Shown here: positions 14,022-20,945 of the stretch, in pieces
Position numbering within the stretch: the first letter of the stretch is position 1
Layout: each line of letters opens with the position of its first letter
Source: Vineibacter terrae
Lineage (GTDB): Bacteria > Pseudomonadota > Alphaproteobacteria > Reyranellales > Reyranellaceae
DNA length: 64,000 nt
Assembly: GCF_008039615.1 (NCBI RefSeq)
Contig: NZ_VDUZ01000019.1
Location: 1-64,000 of the forward strand
Direction of reading: 5' to 3'
Notes under the pieces: generated by a model
What the model was told of the DNA's origin: nothing
The model's input: the letters and a program-made list of their open reading frames with translations, nothing else
Database searches by the model: none
Program-made: the position numbers and the translations under genes

Positions 14022-15518
14022 TCAGTGGATGGCGGCGTACATGATCTTCTCTTCGGTGGCCTCGAGCGCGGAGTACTCCTCCACCACCTTGCCCTGGCGG
14101 CTGACCAGGATGCGGTCCGACAGCGACATGATCTCGGGCAGATAGGACGAGATCACCACCACGGCCTTGCCCTGGTCGGCCAGATCATTGATCAGCCGGT
14201 GGATCTCGGCGATCGCGCCGACGTCGACGCCGCGCGTCGGCTCGTCGAAGATCAGCAGCTCGGGCTCCTGCACCAGCGACTTGGCGATCACCATCTTCTG
14301 CTGGTTGCCGCCCGACAGCTCGACCGCCTTCACGTCGGGGCTGATGGCGCGGATGTTGAGCGCCTTGGTCCACAGCGCTCCCACGGCGCTCGCCGCCTTG
14401 CCCGAGATCAGGCCGCGCTTGCGGCGCAGCTTGGCAAGCTGGCCGATGTAGATGTTGCGCGCGATCGACATGGTCTCGAAGAAGCCCTCGACCTTGCGAT
14501 CCTCGGTGATGTAGGCGATGCCGTCGCGCACGGCCGGCGCCGGCACGCGGTAGCGCACCGGCTTGTCGTGCAGCAGGACCTCGCCGCCGTGGAAGAAGTC
14601 GCGCTTGATGACGCCTGACACGACCTTGAACGTCTCGGTGCGGCCGGCGCCGACCAGGCCGAAGACGCCGGTGATCTGGCCGGCGAACACCGACAGCGAG
14701 TTGTTCTTCACCATCGAGGCCATGCGCAGGTTCTGCACCGACAGCACCCGCTTGCCCGCCGGCCGGATCGTGGTCTTGCGCTGGCCATAGAGCGTCTGCG
14801 ACAGGTCGCGGCCGACCATCGCCTGCACGATGCGGGCGCGGTCGAACTTGGACGCATCGTCGGTGACGACGTGCTTGCCGTCGCGCAGCACCGTGATGCG
14901 GTCAGCGATCAGCAGCGCCTCCTCCAGCGCGTGCGAGATGAAGATCACCGACACGCCGCGCTTCTTCAGGTCGCGCACCAGGTCGAAGAAGTACTTCTTC
15001 TCCTCCGGCGTCAGCGATGCCGTCGGCTCGTCGAAGATGATCACCTTGGCGTTGTGCAGCACGGCGCGCGCGATCTCGACCATCTGCTTCTTGGCGGCGC
15101 CCAGCAGGCTCACGGTGGCGGTCGGCGCGACATCGAAGTTCAGCGACTGCAGGAACTGCTGGGCGGCGATATAGATGCCGCGCAGGCGGTTGAAGAACTT
15201 CTCCTGCCCCAGGAACAGGTTCTGGGCCACGGTCATGGTCGGCACCAGGCTGTTCTCCTGGAACACCATGGCGACACCCAGATCACGCGCCTCGTTGGGC
15301 GTGCGCGGCATCGCCTCGCGGCCGTCGACCAGCATCTGGCCCGAGGTCAGGTTCACGACCCCGGCCATCACCTTGGTCAGCGTCGACTTGCCGGCGCCGT
15401 TCTCGCCGACCAGGGCATGAACCTCGCCTTTCATCAGGGTGAAATCGACGTCCTCGATCGCCGGCACGCCGGCATATTTCTTAGTCGCCTTGCGCAGCTC
15501 CAGAATGGGTGTGCTCAT
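14022..15518 (-). CDS. Sugar ABC transporter ATP-binding protein, RbsA/MglA-type
   Basis: A double ATPase of 498 residues, the usual RbsA length. The first half has Walker A GENGAGKS at 38-45, Q-loop near 87, Walker B DEP at 163-165 and His196. Its signature is unusual: SLLGAAKKQ around 137-145 instead of an LS-x-G-x-Q type. The second half has the customary degenerate Walker A (FGLVGAGRTE, lacking GK) and a good LSGGNQQK signature. The ATG at 15518 overlaps the stop of the propeller gene as ATGA. It is the last gene of the operon and powers both membrane partners encoded upstream. Confidence 0.93.
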   Translation of the reverse strand: MSTPILELRKATKKYAGVPAIEDVDFTLMKGEVHALVGENGAGKSTLTKVMAGVVNLTSGQMLVDGREAMPRTPNEARDLGVAMVFQENSLVPTMTVAQNLFLGQEKFFNRLRGIYIAAQQFLQSLNFDVAPTATVSLLGAAKKQMVEIARAVLHNAKVIIFDEPTASLTPEEKKYFFDLVRDLKKRGVSVIFISHALEEALLIADRITVLRDGKHVVTDDASKFDRARIVQAMVGRDLSQTLYGQRKTTIRPAGKRVLSVQNLRMASMVKNNSLSVFAGQITGVFGLVGAGRTETFKVVSGVIKRDFFHGGEVLLHDKPVRYRVPAPAVRDGIAYITEDRKVEGFFETMSIARNIYIGQLAKLRRKRGLISGKAASAVGALWTKALNIRAISPDVKAVELSGGNQQKMVIAKSLVQEPELLIFDEPTRGVDVGAIAEIHRLINDLADQGKAVVVISSYLPEIMSLSDRILVSRQGKVVEEYSALEATEEKIMYAAIH

Positions 15519-16612
15519 GCCTGGAGACTCCGCTCGATCTCGGCCACGTCCAGCCGCAGGATCCTGCCGCGCCCCTTGGACAGCACGCTCAGCGCCCCGC
15601 CGCATTCGACCGCCGCCACGACGCCGTGGTGCGTGCCGTCCACCCGGCTGTGCAGCGAGTAGCGCACCAGGCCTTCCGGCGTCAGCCGGATCACCAGGCC
15701 GTAGGAGCGCGGCGGCGCCCACGGCTTGAGGATGCCCATGGTCTTGATGTGCGCGCCCTGCATGGGCTCCATGAAGCTGCTGCTGGCGCTGAGGGACGGC
15801 GCCACCCAATGGCGCGGGTCGATCTCGGCCATCATGCGCTTGCGGTAGGCAGGCTCGCGCAGGATGAACTCGATGAGCTGGGTGCGCGCCGTGAAGGCGG
15901 TCAGCCAGTAGCCGCCGCCGGCCGCCGGCGTCAGCCGCGATGGATAGGCCGGCAGACGGTCGACCACGGCCGAGCCCGACCTGCCGCCGTTGTACCGCAC
16001 CAGCCGATGCCGCCACGTCTCGCTGACCCAGGCGCCGTCGCCCGCAGCGCAGGCACCGAAGGCGTAGGCCAGCCCGGTGGCGATCTCGCGGGCACCGCCG
16101 TCGGCCGGCGACAGGGCGACCAGGCGGCCGCTGCGGCCCAGCTCCATCAGGTCGTGCGACCACTGGGCGTAGGGCCGGGTCTGCGAGCCGTCGGTCGCCA
16201 GCAGGCCGCCACCCGGCGCGGCGCTGAGCGCGTTGACGGCGCTGAAGGCGCGCCCGTTGGCGGCGTCCCATGCGCGGCCGTCATGCGCGCCCCCCACCAG
16301 GCGCACGCTTCTGCCGTCCAGGGCCACGGCAAAGCCGCCGCCCGGCAGGCAGGCCAGCGCCGTGATGGCGGCATCGAGCGCCGCCACCTCGACCGGCCCT
16401 CCGGCATCCAGCCGCAGGATGCGCCTGCCGTCGGCGACGAAGACGGCGGCGCCGTCGGTCGCGAGGTCCTCCGGCGCTTCCAGCTCGCAGACGACGGCGG
16501 CCTGCTCCAGCAGCTGATTGGGCTTCAGCGCGCCGTCGAACGGCGGCACGGTGATGGCCGCATCGCCGCGCCCGAAGAAGCGGTCGGTGAGATCCTTCAG
16601 CACGGCGATCAC
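15515..16612 (-). CDS. SMP-30/strictosidine-synthase-like beta-propeller protein
   Basis: A protein of 365 residues with repeated blades (LEAPEDLATDGAAVFVADG; ITALACLPGGGFAVAL; AGDGAWVSETWRHRLVRY), matching the six-bladed propellers of gluconolactonase and strictosidine-synthase-like proteins. The GTG at 16612 is chosen because it overlaps the stop of the upstream gene as GTGA. No signal peptide is evident, so it is probably cytoplasmic. It resembles the propeller domain fused to the upstream permease and is likely a diverged duplicate. A lactone-hydrolase activity on the imported sugar derivative is possible but not shown. Confidence 0.75.
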   Translation of the reverse strand: MIAVLKDLTDRFFGRGDAAITVPPFDGALKPNQLLEQAAVVCELEAPEDLATDGAAVFVADGRRILRLDAGGPVEVAALDAAITALACLPGGGFAVALDGRSVRLVGGAHDGRAWDAANGRAFSAVNALSAAPGGGLLATDGSQTRPYAQWSHDLMELGRSGRLVALSPADGGAREIATGLAYAFGACAAGDGAWVSETWRHRLVRYNGGRSGSAVVDRLPAYPSRLTPAAGGGYWLTAFTARTQLIEFILREPAYRKRMMAEIDPRHWVAPSLSASSSFMEPMQGAHIKTMGILKPWAPPRSYGLVIRLTPEGLVRYSLHSRVDGTHHGVVAAVECGGALSVLSKGRGRILRLDVAEIERSLQA

Positions 16613-18726
16613 GACGCCTTCCCCCACCTTTTGTCGTACTGCACGTAACCGGGGTCGGCGTCGGCCAGCTTGTAGCGGCCGATCCGGTTGTTGAGGATGC
16701 CGCCGAGATAGAGATGGCCCTTATGCTCGCGCATCGAGGTGATCATGGGATGGTTCTTGCCGCCCAGATCCCACAGCGACTCCAGCACCTCGCCCTTCTC
16801 GTTGAACTTGATGACGCAACCGGTGTTGATGTTGGCGAACAGCCACTCGTCGACCGGCAGGCGCTTGGCCATGCGGCGGCGGAAGCCGGGCATGCGCCAG
16901 GCCAGATCGAGCGCCGGACAGCGCATGCCGACCATGGCCAGCCAGTAGTTGCCGTCGGACGCGAGGTTGATGTTGTCGGGATAGCCCGGCAGGTTGTCCA
17001 TCACCATCTCGACCTGCCCCTTCTTCGGGCCGTCGAACCAGTAGCGCTTGACGGTGCAGCCGAAGGTCTCGGCGAACAGGATCGACCGTCCGTCGCTGGC
17101 GATGCAGATGCCGTTGGGGAATTTCAGGCCGCTGACCGCTGTGTGGGTGGAGTTGGTGTTGGGATCGTAGCAGATGATGCGGCCGTTGCCGCGCGCCTCG
17201 ACGCTCTCGACCGGCCATTCGTCCATCTCGTAGCGCACGGTGGCTTCGGAGAAGAAGATGCGGCCGTCGTCGGCGATGTCGAGGTCGTCGGCCAACCGCA
17301 GGCGGCTGTCGTCGTTGACCGAGCGCCAGCTGCGGTTGGTCTCGTCGGTCGCCTTCTCGACCTTGCGCTCGGGCGTGATGCGGTAGAGCCCCATGCCGCC
17401 GATGCAGACATAGAGATTGTCCTGGCGGTCGAACGCCATGCCCAGCGGCTGGCCGCCGATATGGGCATAGACCTCCATGCGCTCGTAGTCGGGCGGGAAG
17501 AAGCGGATGATGTCGCCGTGGCGCGAGCCGGCATAGAGGTTGTCATGGCGGTCGAGGATCACGTCCTCCGGCGCCTCGATGCGGCCCAGCCCGATGGCAT
17601 CGACATTGCGCAGCTTGTCGTTCTGCGCGAACGCCGTGTCGCTGTCGGGCGCCGTGCTGGGGCATGGCGGCAGCGCATGGTAGGTCGGGCTGACATAGAC
17701 CTTGCTGATGATGCGGTGGCGGTTCTTCAGCCAGCGGATATCGACCACCGCCGCCAGGATCAGGATGCCCGCCAGCACCATGCGGTTGATGCCGCCGGGC
17801 GCCGACAGCGACACCAGGCCGTTGGTGATGAAGAGCACGATCAGGGTGCCGACCAGAGCCTTGGCCACCGAGCCCTTGCCGCCGCCCAGGCTGATGCCGC
17901 CCAGCACGGCCGCTGTGAGAACCGTCACCTCGAGACCCAGCCCGATGTCGCTGCCGGTGGTGCTCAGGCGCGCGGCGAAGAAAATGCCGGCGACGGCGGT
18001 CAGCACGCCGCAGGCGACGTAGCACATCGCCACCGTGCGCCGCACGGCGATGCCGGAATTGTAGGCCGAGCGCCGCGAGCCGCCGATGGCGGTGATGTGC
18101 CAGCCGGCACGCAGGCGGGTGAGGAAGACGTGGCCGAAGATCGCGACCGCGGCATAGACCAGCACGATCAGCGGCACGCCCAGGATGTCGCCATCGCCGA
18201 TGAAGTTCCAGGCCTCGGAATCCGGCAGGTAGCCGGCGATCGCGTTGGAGTACTGCAGGATCAGCAGGTCGTAGATCGAGCGGTAGACGATCAACGTGAT
18301 CAGCGTGGTGATGAACGCGCGCAGGCGCAGATAGCCGATCAGGATGCCGTTGATGGCGCCCAGCAGCGCCCCGAACAGCAGCGTCACCGGGATGGCGGCG
18401 GCGACCGGCCATTTCAGCACGTGGATCAGGAACAGGGCGCAGAAATTGGTGAGCGCGAAGCTCGAGCCGACCGACAGGTCGATGCCGCCCACGATCATCA
18501 CCAGCGCCATGCCCAGCACGATGAAGCCGATCTCGCCGGCCTGGCGCGAGGCGGCGGTCAGGCTGGCAGGCGACAGGAAGCCGTCGATCGCCTGGTTGAG
18601 CCCGAAGGCCACCGCGATCAGCACCATCACCGGGATGGCCGTCTCGGTCCAGCGCTTGGACAGGATCTCGCCCAACATGTGGTCGGGCCAGTAGCGATAC
18701 CGCAGCCGCGTCAGCGTCTCATTCAT
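16609..18726 (-). CDS. Fusion: RbsC-type ABC permease plus C-terminal beta-propeller domain
   Basis: A 705-residue protein, about twice the usual permease length. Residues 1-340 form an RbsC-like permease with many hydrophobic segments and the family motif GGIDLSVGS; a loop near 250-270 (GSRRSAYNSGI) is typical. After a linker (about 341-370) the rest is a propeller of the SMP-30/strictosidine-synthase/APMAP type (APEDVILDRHDNLYAG, LKFPNGICIASDGRSILFAET, LPGYPDNINLASDGNYW). The reading frame is continuous and the junction has no stop. The ATG at 18726 matches the permease N-terminus. The propeller probably faces the cytoplasm, because such permeases usually have a cytoplasmic C-terminus; that is inference. 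Confidence 0.85.
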   Translation of the reverse strand: MNETLTRLRYRYWPDHMLGEILSKRWTETAIPVMVLIAVAFGLNQAIDGFLSPASLTAASRQAGEIGFIVLGMALVMIVGGIDLSVGSSFALTNFCALFLIHVLKWPVAAAIPVTLLFGALLGAINGILIGYLRLRAFITTLITLIVYRSIYDLLILQYSNAIAGYLPDSEAWNFIGDGDILGVPLIVLVYAAVAIFGHVFLTRLRAGWHITAIGGSRRSAYNSGIAVRRTVAMCYVACGVLTAVAGIFFAARLSTTGSDIGLGLEVTVLTAAVLGGISLGGGKGSVAKALVGTLIVLFITNGLVSLSAPGGINRMVLAGILILAAVVDIRWLKNRHRIISKVYVSPTYHALPPCPSTAPDSDTAFAQNDKLRNVDAIGLGRIEAPEDVILDRHDNLYAGSRHGDIIRFFPPDYERMEVYAHIGGQPLGMAFDRQDNLYVCIGGMGLYRITPERKVEKATDETNRSWRSVNDDSRLRLADDLDIADDGRIFFSEATVRYEMDEWPVESVEARGNGRIICYDPNTNSTHTAVSGLKFPNGICIASDGRSILFAETFGCTVKRYWFDGPKKGQVEMVMDNLPGYPDNINLASDGNYWLAMVGMRCPALDLAWRMPGFRRRMAKRLPVDEWLFANINTGCVIKFNEKGEVLESLWDLGGKNHPMITSMREHKGHLYLGGILNNRIGRYKLADADPGYVQYDKRWGKAS

Positions 18727-18765
18727 TGTCGCATCACCACGATAGTGCGGCTCTGGGAAAGAATT

Positions 18766-18881
18766 CACCACAGAGGCACAGAGAGCACCGAGGGACACAG
18801 AGGATGATCTGCGCGCGCCTACGGCGCGCAGTTCTTTCTTATCTCTGTGAACCTCTGTGCTTCTCTGTGCCTCTGTGGTTG
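18766..18881. repeat. Family D inverted repeat (ACAGAGG-rich), intercistronic
   Basis: Two arms of roughly 38 bases, built from repeated CACAGAGG/CCTCTGTG words, at about 18766-18802 and 18843-18881 with a 40-base loop. It separates the binding-protein gene from the permease-propeller gene within one operon. In mRNA it would form a long hairpin just after the binding-protein stop codon. Similar ACAGAGG hairpins are widespread in unrelated bacterial genomes. Confidence 0.85.
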
Positions 18882-18894
18882 GTCTTATTCAGGA

Positions 18895-19923
18895 CTAGGA
18901 CTTGCCGAGCGACCAGCAGGTGCCGGGCAGCGACGCGTTCTCCTTGGTGATCGGGATCAGCGTCGTGTAGATCGAGCCCTTGGCGGTGCCCGGCTTGACG
19001 CCGGACTGCAGCAGCCACTTGATCATCGTCACCATGCTGCCGGCCTGCGACGGCACGTCGTAGCTGAAGTCGACGTCGAAGGCGCCGCTCTTGACCAGGT
19101 CGCAGGACCGCGTCTGCTCGCCGCCACCCGATGTGGCGAGGAACACCTTGCCGGTCAGCCCCGCCTCCTGGATGGCCGCGGCCGTGCCGACATCCATGCC
19201 GTCCCAGAAGCCGATGATGCCGCACAGGTCGGGGTGCTGCTTGAGCACGGTCTGGGCGATGCCCTTGGCCTTCGTGGCATCCCAGTCGGCAGCCTGGCTC
19301 GACACCACCTTGATCTCGGGATGCTTGGCCAGGACGTTCTCGACGCCGGTCAGGGTATAGGCGCTGGCCGCGGCCGAGAGCTGGCCCTGCATGATGGCGA
19401 TCTTGTTCGACTTGCCCTTGCAGGCATTGATGACGGCCGCCGCCTGCTTCTCGCCCATCTCGATCCAGTCGGCGCCGACATAGGCCGAGGAGTTGTAGCT
19501 GGAGCGCATGTTGATCTGCACGACATGGATACCGGAGGCTTCGGCCCGCTGCAGCAGCTTGGCGTAGGTCTGCACGTCGGGGTTCTGGACCACGATCACA
19601 TCCGGCTTCTCGGACAGCAGTGTGGTCACGGCCTGGGCGCCGGCATTGGTGCTCCAGTTGGCGTCGCGCAGCACGAACTTCACGCCCAGCGGCTCGAGCT
19701 CCTTCTTCAGGCCGGCGTACCAGCCCTGCATCAGGTCGACATTCATCGCCAGCGGCACGTAGGCCACGGTCTTGCCTTCGAGCGCCTTCAGGTAGGGTTG
19801 CCGGAACGGCTCATCGAGCCCCTTGCCCTGCGCCAGGGCCTGCCCGGCACCGGCCGCCAGGCCGGCGCACAGGATGCCGCCGGCGAGCAGCCGCGACAGG
19901 TGGCGGCGGTGATTGAACGACAT
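18895..19923 (-). CDS. Sugar ABC transporter substrate-binding protein, RbsB/XylF-type
   Basis: A periplasmic binding protein of 342 residues (type 1 fold). A signal peptide with a twin basic start (MSFNHRRHLSRLLAGG...) ends near AQALAQG at about residue 31. The body shows the expected pattern: VAYVPLAMNVDLMQGWYAGLKKELEPLG, a DVIVVQNPD strand, GIIGFWDGMDVGTAAAIQEAGL, and an Asp/Trp-rich binding cleft. It lies between two permease genes and is followed by the family D hairpin, which may keep its transcript more abundant than the downstream part. The ligand is unknown, but the two propeller proteins suggest a sugar lactone or aldonate. Confidence 0.92.
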   Translation of the reverse strand: MSFNHRRHLSRLLAGGILCAGLAAGAGQALAQGKGLDEPFRQPYLKALEGKTVAYVPLAMNVDLMQGWYAGLKKELEPLGVKFVLRDANWSTNAGAQAVTTLLSEKPDVIVVQNPDVQTYAKLLQRAEASGIHVVQINMRSSYNSSAYVGADWIEMGEKQAAAVINACKGKSNKIAIMQGQLSAAASAYTLTGVENVLAKHPEIKVVSSQAADWDATKAKGIAQTVLKQHPDLCGIIGFWDGMDVGTAAAIQEAGLTGKVFLATSGGGEQTRSCDLVKSGAFDVDFSYDVPSQAGSMVTMIKWLLQSGVKPGTAKGSIYTTLIPITKENASLPGTCWSLGKS

Positions 19924-19973
19924 GGCATTTCCTCCTCTGCTGTTGTGGTTCGGAGCGCGAGCGGTCGCAGGCG

Positions 19974-20945
19974 TCAGATGTCGCCTTGCTGGGCGGTCTC
20001 CTCGTTGCGCGGGTTGAGAACCGAGTCGATCAGGATGGCGATCAGCAGGATGACGCCCTTGATCAGGTTCTGCGCCGAATAGGACATGTCCAGGATCGTC
20101 ATGCCGTTGAGCAGCGTGCCGATCAGCAGCGTGCCCGTGACGGCGTTGAGCACGCCGCCGCGGCCGCCGCTCAGCCCGATGCCGCCCAGCACGACGACCA
20201 GGATCACGTCGTAGATCATCGTCGAGTTGTAGATGCGGGTCTGCATGGTGCCGATCGACGCGGCCATCACCATGCCGGCGAAGGCGGCGATCAGCGCCGC
20301 GAACACGTACTGGCGCAGGATCAGCGGCCGGGTCGGGATGCCGATGGTCCGCGCGCCCAGCGGATTGTCGCCGGTGGCATAGAGATAGGTGCCGAAGCGC
20401 GTGTAGCGCAGCAGGAAGGCGCAGACCAGGATCGTGAGCCCGAACATCACCACCGGCATCGGTATGCCGACGATGCTGCCACGGCCGAAGCCGGCGATGG
20501 CGTCGAGCTGCGGCGGCCACGGCACGAGATCGAGCTTGAAGAAGGCGACCTGTCCCAGGCCCGCCAGGAAAAGCCCAGACGCCAATGTCGTGAACAACGA
20601 CGGCACTTCGGCGTATGCAATCAGCCAGCCATTGACCAGCCCGAAGACGATGACCAGCGCCAGCGCCGCTGCAACGGAAACGCTGACGGGATAGCCGTCA
20701 TTGACCATCTGCAGGACCAGCCCGGGCGGCACCGCCAGCGCCGCGATCATCGATATGTCGATGCCGCGGCCGATGACGACGATCGCCATCCCCAGCCCCA
20801 GGATGCCCAGGATCGCCACGTTCTGCAGCAGCGCCACGATGTTGCTGGCGCTGAAGAAGCCCGGCAGGAGCAAGGAGAATACAAGGAAGAGAACGATGAA
20901 TATGCCGAAGACGATAGTCTGCTGAGACAACCGCGCACTGGACAT
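19974..20945 (-). CDS. Sugar ABC transporter permease, RbsC-type
   Basis: An inner-membrane permease of 323 residues with about 8-10 hydrophobic segments and the family motif (GRGIDISMIA near residues 60-70, matching GGIDLSVGS of RbsC). The cytoplasmic loop (YLYATGDNPLGARTIGI) is conserved. It is the first gene of the operon and is the stand-alone partner of the fused permease. This makes a heterodimeric membrane domain likely, whereas many RbsC permeases work as homodimers. The ATG at 20945 is the only sensible start. Confidence 0.92.
   Translation of the reverse strand: MSSARLSQQTIVFGIFIVLFLVFSLLLPGFFSASNIVALLQNVAILGILGLGMAIVVIGRGIDISMIAALAVPPGLVLQMVNDGYPVSVSVAAALALVIVFGLVNGWLIAYAEVPSLFTTLASGLFLAGLGQVAFFKLDLVPWPPQLDAIAGFGRGSIVGIPMPVVMFGLTILVCAFLLRYTRFGTYLYATGDNPLGARTIGIPTRPLILRQYVFAALIAAFAGMVMAASIGTMQTRIYNSTMIYDVILVVVLGGIGLSGGRGGVLNAVTGTLLIGTLLNGMTILDMSYSAQNLIKGVILLIAILIDSVLNPRNEETAQQGDI

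Follow-up and report, generated by a model that had tools for sequence, protein, structure and literature searches.

The closest described relatives of the system reported here include transporters and enzymes. CUT2-type ATP-binding cassette (ABC) importers, including RbsABC, XylFGH, AlsBAC and YtfQRT/YjfF, combine a Peripla_BP_4 binding protein with two BPD_transp_2 permeases and a double ATPase, while the N6P propeller superfamily includes strictosidine-synthase-like proteins, SMP-30/gluconolactonase, paraoxonase, DFPase and RPA3624. Within this superfamily, four conserved ligands mark the metal-dependent hydrolases, and strictosidine synthase is metal-independent, according to the available part of PMC4215206. 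Here, we describe an operon of Vineibacter terrae, located on a 64,000-nucleotide stretch of DNA (contig NZ_VDUZ01000019.1, positions 1 to 64,000; hereafter the window), which encodes the same transport parts as the CUT2 importers but, unlike these, carries a propeller on one of its permeases, a second propeller gene and a different binding-protein pocket. The fused propeller shares its fold and four metal-ligand positions with the N6P superfamily; unlike other members, it is covalently joined to a transporter, on the predicted cytoplasmic side, and is accompanied by a second member with a degenerate site. A Deinococcus lactonase that joins a Cu/Zn superoxide dismutase to a propeller is also a natural N6P lactonase fusion but not a transporter, as far as the available part of PMC12362111 describes it, and no publication on the union of a permease and a propeller was found among the titles listed from open-licence literature. 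Permease and propeller are each of known kinds.

The propeller-fused importer architecture is real, conserved and unusual. With regard to function, the fused propeller is a probable metal-dependent lactonase, the binding protein probably has a non-sugar ligand, and enzymes that lead from acids to CoA esters adjoin the operon in several relatives; taken together, these features suggest that lactones are taken up and that their ring is opened as they enter. We consider the chances even that the operon encodes a CUT2-like (RbsABC-type) ABC importer of hydroxy-acid lactones or close esters, not of sugars, and that the ring is opened at the inner mouth of the transporter. The operon is read from the minus strand, in the order permease 2, binding protein, fusion, second propeller and double ATPase, and its features are as follows.

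19974..20945, minus strand: unfused permease 2 of the RbsC type, 323 aa, encoded by the first operon gene (BPD_transp_2, 4.2e-27)
18895..19923, minus strand: periplasmic binding protein, 342 aa (Peripla_BP_4, 1.2e-44), with a pocket that is not ribose-like in the alignment to 2ioy
16609..18726, minus strand: fusion of an RbsC-type permease (aa 1-343), a linker (344-375) and an SSL/SMP-30-type propeller (376-700)
17692..18726, minus strand: permease half of the fusion (aa 1-345), with ten hydrophobic helices predicted and both termini inside according to the charge pattern
16612..17691, minus strand: propeller half of the fusion (aa 346-705), candidate metal-dependent lactonase/esterase
15515..16612, minus strand: second propeller, 365 aa, GTG start, degenerate metal site
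14022..15518, minus strand: double ATP-binding protein, RbsA/XylG type, 498 aa from ATG

A preliminary description of this DNA had reported that an RbsC-type permease and a propeller of the SMP-30/strictosidine-synthase type are encoded in one continuous frame and that GTGA and ATGA overlaps link both propeller genes to the ATPase gene, and both statements hold. The fusion is a single unbroken frame (18726-16609, minus strand) with an ATG start and 705 aa plus stop, in which Pfam identifies BPD_transp_2 at residues 61-325 (2.1e-31) and, further along, SSL_N (365-409, 7.1e-13), Str_synth (480-566, 2.6e-18) and SGL (418-601, 3e-15). Its stop is shared with the GTG start of the second-propeller gene (GTGA, 16612-16609), the stop of which is in turn shared with the ATG start of the ATPase gene (ATGA, 15518-15515). 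The fusion had also been proposed as something to look for in other alphaproteobacteria; a scan of 84,980 genomes, one per species, identified 63 loci in other records, mostly from alphaproteobacteria with some from Burkholderiales (betaproteobacteria). Practically the full length of the fusion is matched in 60 of these loci, the other three (L071, L077 and L100) ending at contig ends, and the five-gene set is complete in 55, the remaining eight (3.6 to 10.2 kb) missing genes where the contig stops; where loci are long enough, permease 2 again lies upstream of the binding-protein gene. Of 16 plasmid records with matches, 15 contain a single place that accounts for 80% or more of the fusion, and a Pantoea plasmid also bears the fused operon. 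A frame error at the permease-propeller junction is ruled out by this recurrence in the 63 loci and in the plasmid records. The last base and stop of 74 of 85 distinct fusion genes fit an ATGA, GTGA or TTGA junction, a count made from the fusion end without checking each next-gene start. Smaller samples yielded 12 long-frame matches in 10 genomes among 101 relatives, 16 propeller matches in frames of 559-759 aa, of sufficient length to encode the fusion, in 10 of 385 genomes across the class (plus 15 other matches in frames of 358-417 aa, apparently stand-alone) and, with a fusion profile, 11 positive genomes of 398 across the phylum, all of the window's class.

Further arrangements of the same parts were observed. 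In L159 (genome G764), a related permease is directly fused to a double ATPase without a propeller, with a binding-protein gene adjoining, and in a second region of NZ_CP015738.1 (188549-191173) a pair of RbsC-type permease matches precedes a 330-aa frame with a propeller match. One genome, G398, has five fusions, three of them in propeller-fused operons within ~23 kb of contig C25 (L142, L143) that fall into different tree branches, and two outside this trio. The window's own genome (G000) contains, on contig C21 (104068-105915), two RbsC-type permease matches in one 673-aa frame, a tandem permease fusion. As to an unfused ancestor, no such transporter part was found beside 25 stand-alone propellers, within flanks of ~1.5 kb for most, nor within the 18 kb of L146.

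The fold of the fused propeller was addressed with AlphaFold models of single chains, and its orientation through the charges of the permease loops. The model of the fusion (mean pLDDT 85.0, pTM 0.69, 32 sequences) has a permease with ten hydrophobic helices, and the predicted loops contain 11 lysine or arginine residues on the side of the N-terminus versus one on the opposite side. Because of this charge pattern and because the last permease helix ends in a basic stretch, the propeller and both permease termini should be cytoplasmic, in agreement with the earlier suggestion that the propeller faces the cytoplasm; a periplasmic propeller receives no support from the charge pattern. For RbsC itself, we relied on what we take to be its topology. 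In Foldseek searches, the fused propeller matched strictosidine synthases and TGW6 best, then DFPase and the lactonase RPA3624 (8djf; TMt 0.78, rmsd 2.9), so that model and matches place it in the six-bladed class, as judged from the overall fold.

With a double nucleotide-binding-domain ATPase, RbsC-type permeases and a Peripla_BP_4 protein in one operon, the transport parts are those of a CUT2-type ABC importer, and no transport subunit reached an NCBIfam cut-off among the matches listed (for the ATPase, best 25 of 192). The preliminary description had called the system a sugar ABC importer, a label that the binding-protein pocket makes doubtful. We aligned 68 homologous binding proteins to the ribose-binding protein 2ioy, using what we take to be the sugar contacts of RbsB. 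R141 is kept in none of the 68 and N190 in none (all 68 have W), D89 is kept in 10 and N13 in one, and R90 and D215 are kept in none, the latter with an unsure alignment. As a control, 13 Peripla_BP_4 matches were found in the window's own genome, of which nine could be aligned to 2ioy; apart from the protein of the window itself, the remaining eight retain R141 in seven, D89 in six and N190 in three cases and never have W at N190. After this control, R90 and D215 were dropped as marks of a non-sugar pocket. The ribose-type contacts of a CUT2 sugar importer are therefore lacking from the binding protein, and because R141 is absent and W stands in place of N190, transport of a sugar is doubtful; the ligand is, to judge from these residues, probably less polar and not a sugar. 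In addition, several branches adjoin enzymes that act on acids, alcohols or CoA esters. The operon would work like a CUT2 system, for which 'sugar importer' is only a family label.

These data also bear on an alternative that we regard as unlikely, namely that the importer takes up a sugar or polyol, that a dehydrogenase makes the lactone inside and that the tethered cytoplasmic lactonase then opens it, the fusion providing proximity only. Lactonases are common in oxidative sugar and polyol routes, all transport parts have CUT2 homology, and one six-row branch has a short-chain dehydrogenase/reductase (SDR) and/or an aldehyde dehydrogenase beside the operon. The pocket described above, which differs from that of most family members in the same genome, argues against this alternative, as do three records in which the genes contiguous with the operon belong to a 3-hydroxy-3-methylglutaryl-CoA (HMG-CoA) reductase (HMGR) context and are not sugar dehydrogenases.

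The candidate metal site of the fused propeller, located by motif, comprises E387, D480, N538 and D584, which correspond to the ligands E, N/D, N and D of the superfamily; for DFPase, PON1 and SMP-30, we used what we take to be the ligand numbering. In 85 fusions, a set that contains near relatives, E387, N538 and D584 are invariant and position 480 is D in 72 and N in 13, while N585 and E667 are likewise kept in all 85. Given that 58 of 325 propeller positions are invariant in a 40-row alignment, the probability of finding all three invariant ligand positions among them by chance is 0.005. The ligand spacing (93/58/46) agrees with the 90/49/42 of the Ca site of the DrSOD propeller, a solved lactonase structure, given as E200-N290-N339-D381 in the available part of PMC12362111. 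In phmmer alignments, the N538 and D584 columns are retained in TGW6 and lost in two strictosidine synthases; strictosidine-synthase chemistry was rejected for the fused propeller, as it retains the metal-ligand positions. We infer metal binding and lactonase activity from these residues, and the fused propeller is thus a probable metal-dependent lactonase on the inner face of the membrane.

The second propeller, described earlier as a diverged one encoded by the next gene, is indeed below the Pfam cut-offs (best Str_synth, 12.7 bits vs 25), and its structure model (pLDDT 87.8) matches strictosidine synthase best; a signal peptide was not seen in it by eye. Among 92 sequences, the third ligand N is present in only four and the fourth ligand D in none, and the protein has invariant residues of its own, including W151, E198, W200, H321 and H329 (59 rows). 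It is probably a dead relative of the fused propeller, judging from these substitutions, and its gene was found in every homologous locus of sufficient length. The idea that both propellers are catalytic lactonases was rejected for the second propeller, which has lost two of four metal ligands. Mapping of the metal-site residues, suggested in the preliminary description, hence gave a split result, with all four kept in one propeller and two lost in the other; the combination that would have undone that description, active-site residues missing from both propellers and no fusion in relatives, was not found.

The persistence of a propeller without two ligands in every locus long enough speaks for a second alternative, which we consider rather improbable, that the propellers are sensors or locks that bind an internal product and gate the transporter by trans-inhibition, with the metal being structural. 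Other ABC importers have gating cytoplasmic domains, e.g., MetN and ModC. Against such a role stand the conservation of the four ligand positions together with N585 and E667 throughout the 85 fused propellers and the finding that the propeller is more conserved than the permease (mean pairwise identity over 40 rows, 64% vs 53%).

One branch of fusions links the operon to mevalonate. In Shinella HZN7, the last base of a degradative HMGR gene coincides with the start of permease 2; in G398, HMGR (within 5 bp of permease 2), the five operon genes and then an HMG-CoA lyase gene follow each other on one strand; and in G486, HMGR, CoA transferase III, enoyl-CoA hydratase and the five operon genes share a strand, with a convergent HMG-CoA lyase gene next. 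The operon is contiguous with HMGR in all three records and the lyase is contiguous in G398 only; the HMGRs of Shinella and G398 and both lyases exceed NCBIfam cut-offs. The operon of the HMGR-bearing branch thus sits in a mevalonate catabolism module. Degradative HMGR modules of Ruegeria, Tistrella, Nitratireductor and Rhizobium etli likewise contain HMGR, in some cases HMG-CoA lyase, and a divergent PLP-dependent aminotransferase-family gene; unlike the fusion branch, they have a TRAP or TTT transporter and no annotated propellers. Of 372 genomes of the class, 20 have HMGR (19 above cut-off), which also matched 37 plasmid records, of which six regions were read besides Shinella; four of these have TRAP and one TTT, and one shows no annotated transporter between HMGR and the next pathway genes. 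The fused importer therefore occupies a place otherwise held by organic-acid-type transporters. No publication on a mevalonate ABC or TRAP importer was found among the titles listed, and the available part of PMC13064465 contains nothing on mevalonolactone uptake.

Across alphaproteobacterial HMGR modules, the transporter appears interchangeable (TRAP, TTT or propeller-fused ABC). A DctP gene follows HMGR in L215 and L211, and a Peripla_BP_6 protein is encoded nearby in L208 and L209. Each of the seven regions inspected (L219-L224 and L170, including Shinella HZN7) also has a divergently oriented gene annotated as 'PLP-dependent aminotransferase family', which may encode a MocR-type regulator. 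In the least probable alternative, hydroxy acids of the mevalonate type are taken up with the ring already open, and the propeller merely salvages a small lactone fraction or cleaves another ester. This accords with TRAP and TTT transporters, which are known for carboxylates, holding the same place in other HMGR modules. Against it, the five TRAP/TTT modules show no annotated propeller in the regions inspected, for which the plasmid gene table is incomplete, whereas the three ABC versions have two.

Beyond this branch, gene neighbors were placed on a quick tree of 102 fusions, in which only 33 rows have a neighbor label and many of the others have short flanks. Carboxymuconolactone decarboxylase and relatives (10 rows) and SDR or aldehyde dehydrogenase (6 rows) each require one change, CoA ligase (8 rows) requires two, all in the 52-row branch that includes the window, and alcohol/aldehyde dehydrogenase (4 rows) requires three, with 65 of 500 shuffles as low. 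An AMP-binding CoA ligase gene adjoins the operon on the same strand, up- or downstream with gaps of 0-168 bp, in 8 of 63 loci (L054, L062, L065, L070, L073, L079, L086 and L097); it lies two genes downstream in L094 and 103 bp downstream in G262, and AMP-binding is the commonest Pfam family among 122 neighbor proteins (n=6, a raw count without background rate). The other loci have diverse neighbors or no related ones. In L070 (1609-3870) and L086 (1597-3873), a single ~755-aa frame, located immediately upstream of the fused operon, combines a TetR-type regulator with an AMP-binding CoA ligase. Beside another branch (L141, L171, L087 and L090), a branched-chain-type aminotransferase, a carboxymuconolactone decarboxylase-like protein and a quinone oxidoreductase recur on either side. 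On a Sulfitobacter plasmid (L134, 1513-6881), genes for a phosphotransferase, a small protein, a CoA ligase, an acyl-CoA dehydrogenase and a 335-aa protein are contiguous with the fused ABC operon, an arrangement that recalls the lva genes for 4-hydroxy acids when compared with the enzymes in the available part of PMC12440821; as a single-operon lead in which the phosphotransferase has no NCBIfam match at E 1e-20, a levulinate-type (lva) pathway is not claimed. The flanks of the window's operon, inspected by eye, contain what looks like a histidine kinase gene downstream and like a divergent MarR/MFS pair upstream, neither of which is informative.

A number of observations weigh against import of lactones with ring opening at the inner mouth. 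The 25 stand-alone relatives keep the four ligand positions equally well (25, 25 with D or N, 24 and 25), so the ligands argue for hydrolysis and not for coupling, and part of the pocket argument is weakened by R90 being kept in only two of the eight control proteins and by D215 aligning differently between two methods. A directly adjoining CoA ligase gene on the same strand is missing from 55 of 63 loci, no catabolic neighbor was recognized for the window's operon, and the neighbors vary from branch to branch, comprising SDR/aldehyde dehydrogenase, carboxymuconolactone decarboxylase with quinone oxidoreductase and aminotransferase, or alcohol and aldehyde dehydrogenases, a variety that could also be accounted for by oxidative routes for sugars or alcohols. 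The operon is patchy, being present in one of three other genomes of the same genus. With regard to mevalonate, no HMGR match was found in the window's genome or in 21 of 25 genomes taken as fusion-bearing; of the four HMGR-positive ones, two have the gene adjacent, G339 has it ~15 kb off on the same contig and strand, and G262 elsewhere. On the tree, HMGR (3 rows) requires two changes and 30 of 500 shuffles were as low, leaving its clustering unclear, and the TRAP and TTT replacements suggest that the open acid is importable too.

In a lactone importer of this kind, the binding protein would hand a lactone over to the two permeases, through which it would be driven inward at the expense of ATP hydrolyzed by the double ATPase. 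The metal-dependent N6P propeller, attached to one permease at its cytoplasmic end, would then hydrolyze the ring at the inner mouth or close to it. The resulting anionic hydroxy acid would be trapped, because it is charged and would not leak back, and would go on to be activated with CoA or oxidized. As for the second propeller, it would likely pair with the fused one or act as a structural or regulatory partner located beneath the unfused permease. Mevalonate or mevalonolactone is the substrate assigned to one branch, while that of the window would take another lactone or hydroxy acid. The earlier idea of transport-coupled lactone opening is strengthened by the present data. What these show directly is the architecture and its conservation, the charge pattern, the conserved ligand positions, the degenerate second site and the gene contexts; from them we infer metal binding, the activity, its coupling to transport, the pairing of the propellers and the substrates. 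A broader formulation, to which we give somewhat less than an even chance, is vectorial lactone opening, in which a metallo-lactonase within a transmembrane subunit makes uptake and the first catabolic step one event, with an obligate pseudo-lactonase partner, a mevalonolactone branch and radiation to other hydroxy-acid lactones; it may be likened to the phosphotransferase system, which phosphorylates sugars on uptake.

If true, the membrane subunit of an ABC importer would here carry a fused hydrolase, by which uptake is linked to metabolic trapping, and one operon would encode an enzyme/pseudo-enzyme pair. It would also point to the kind of substrate taken up by importers that are at present annotated as sugar ABC transporters and provide a candidate mevalonate or mevalonolactone transporter in alphaproteobacteria.

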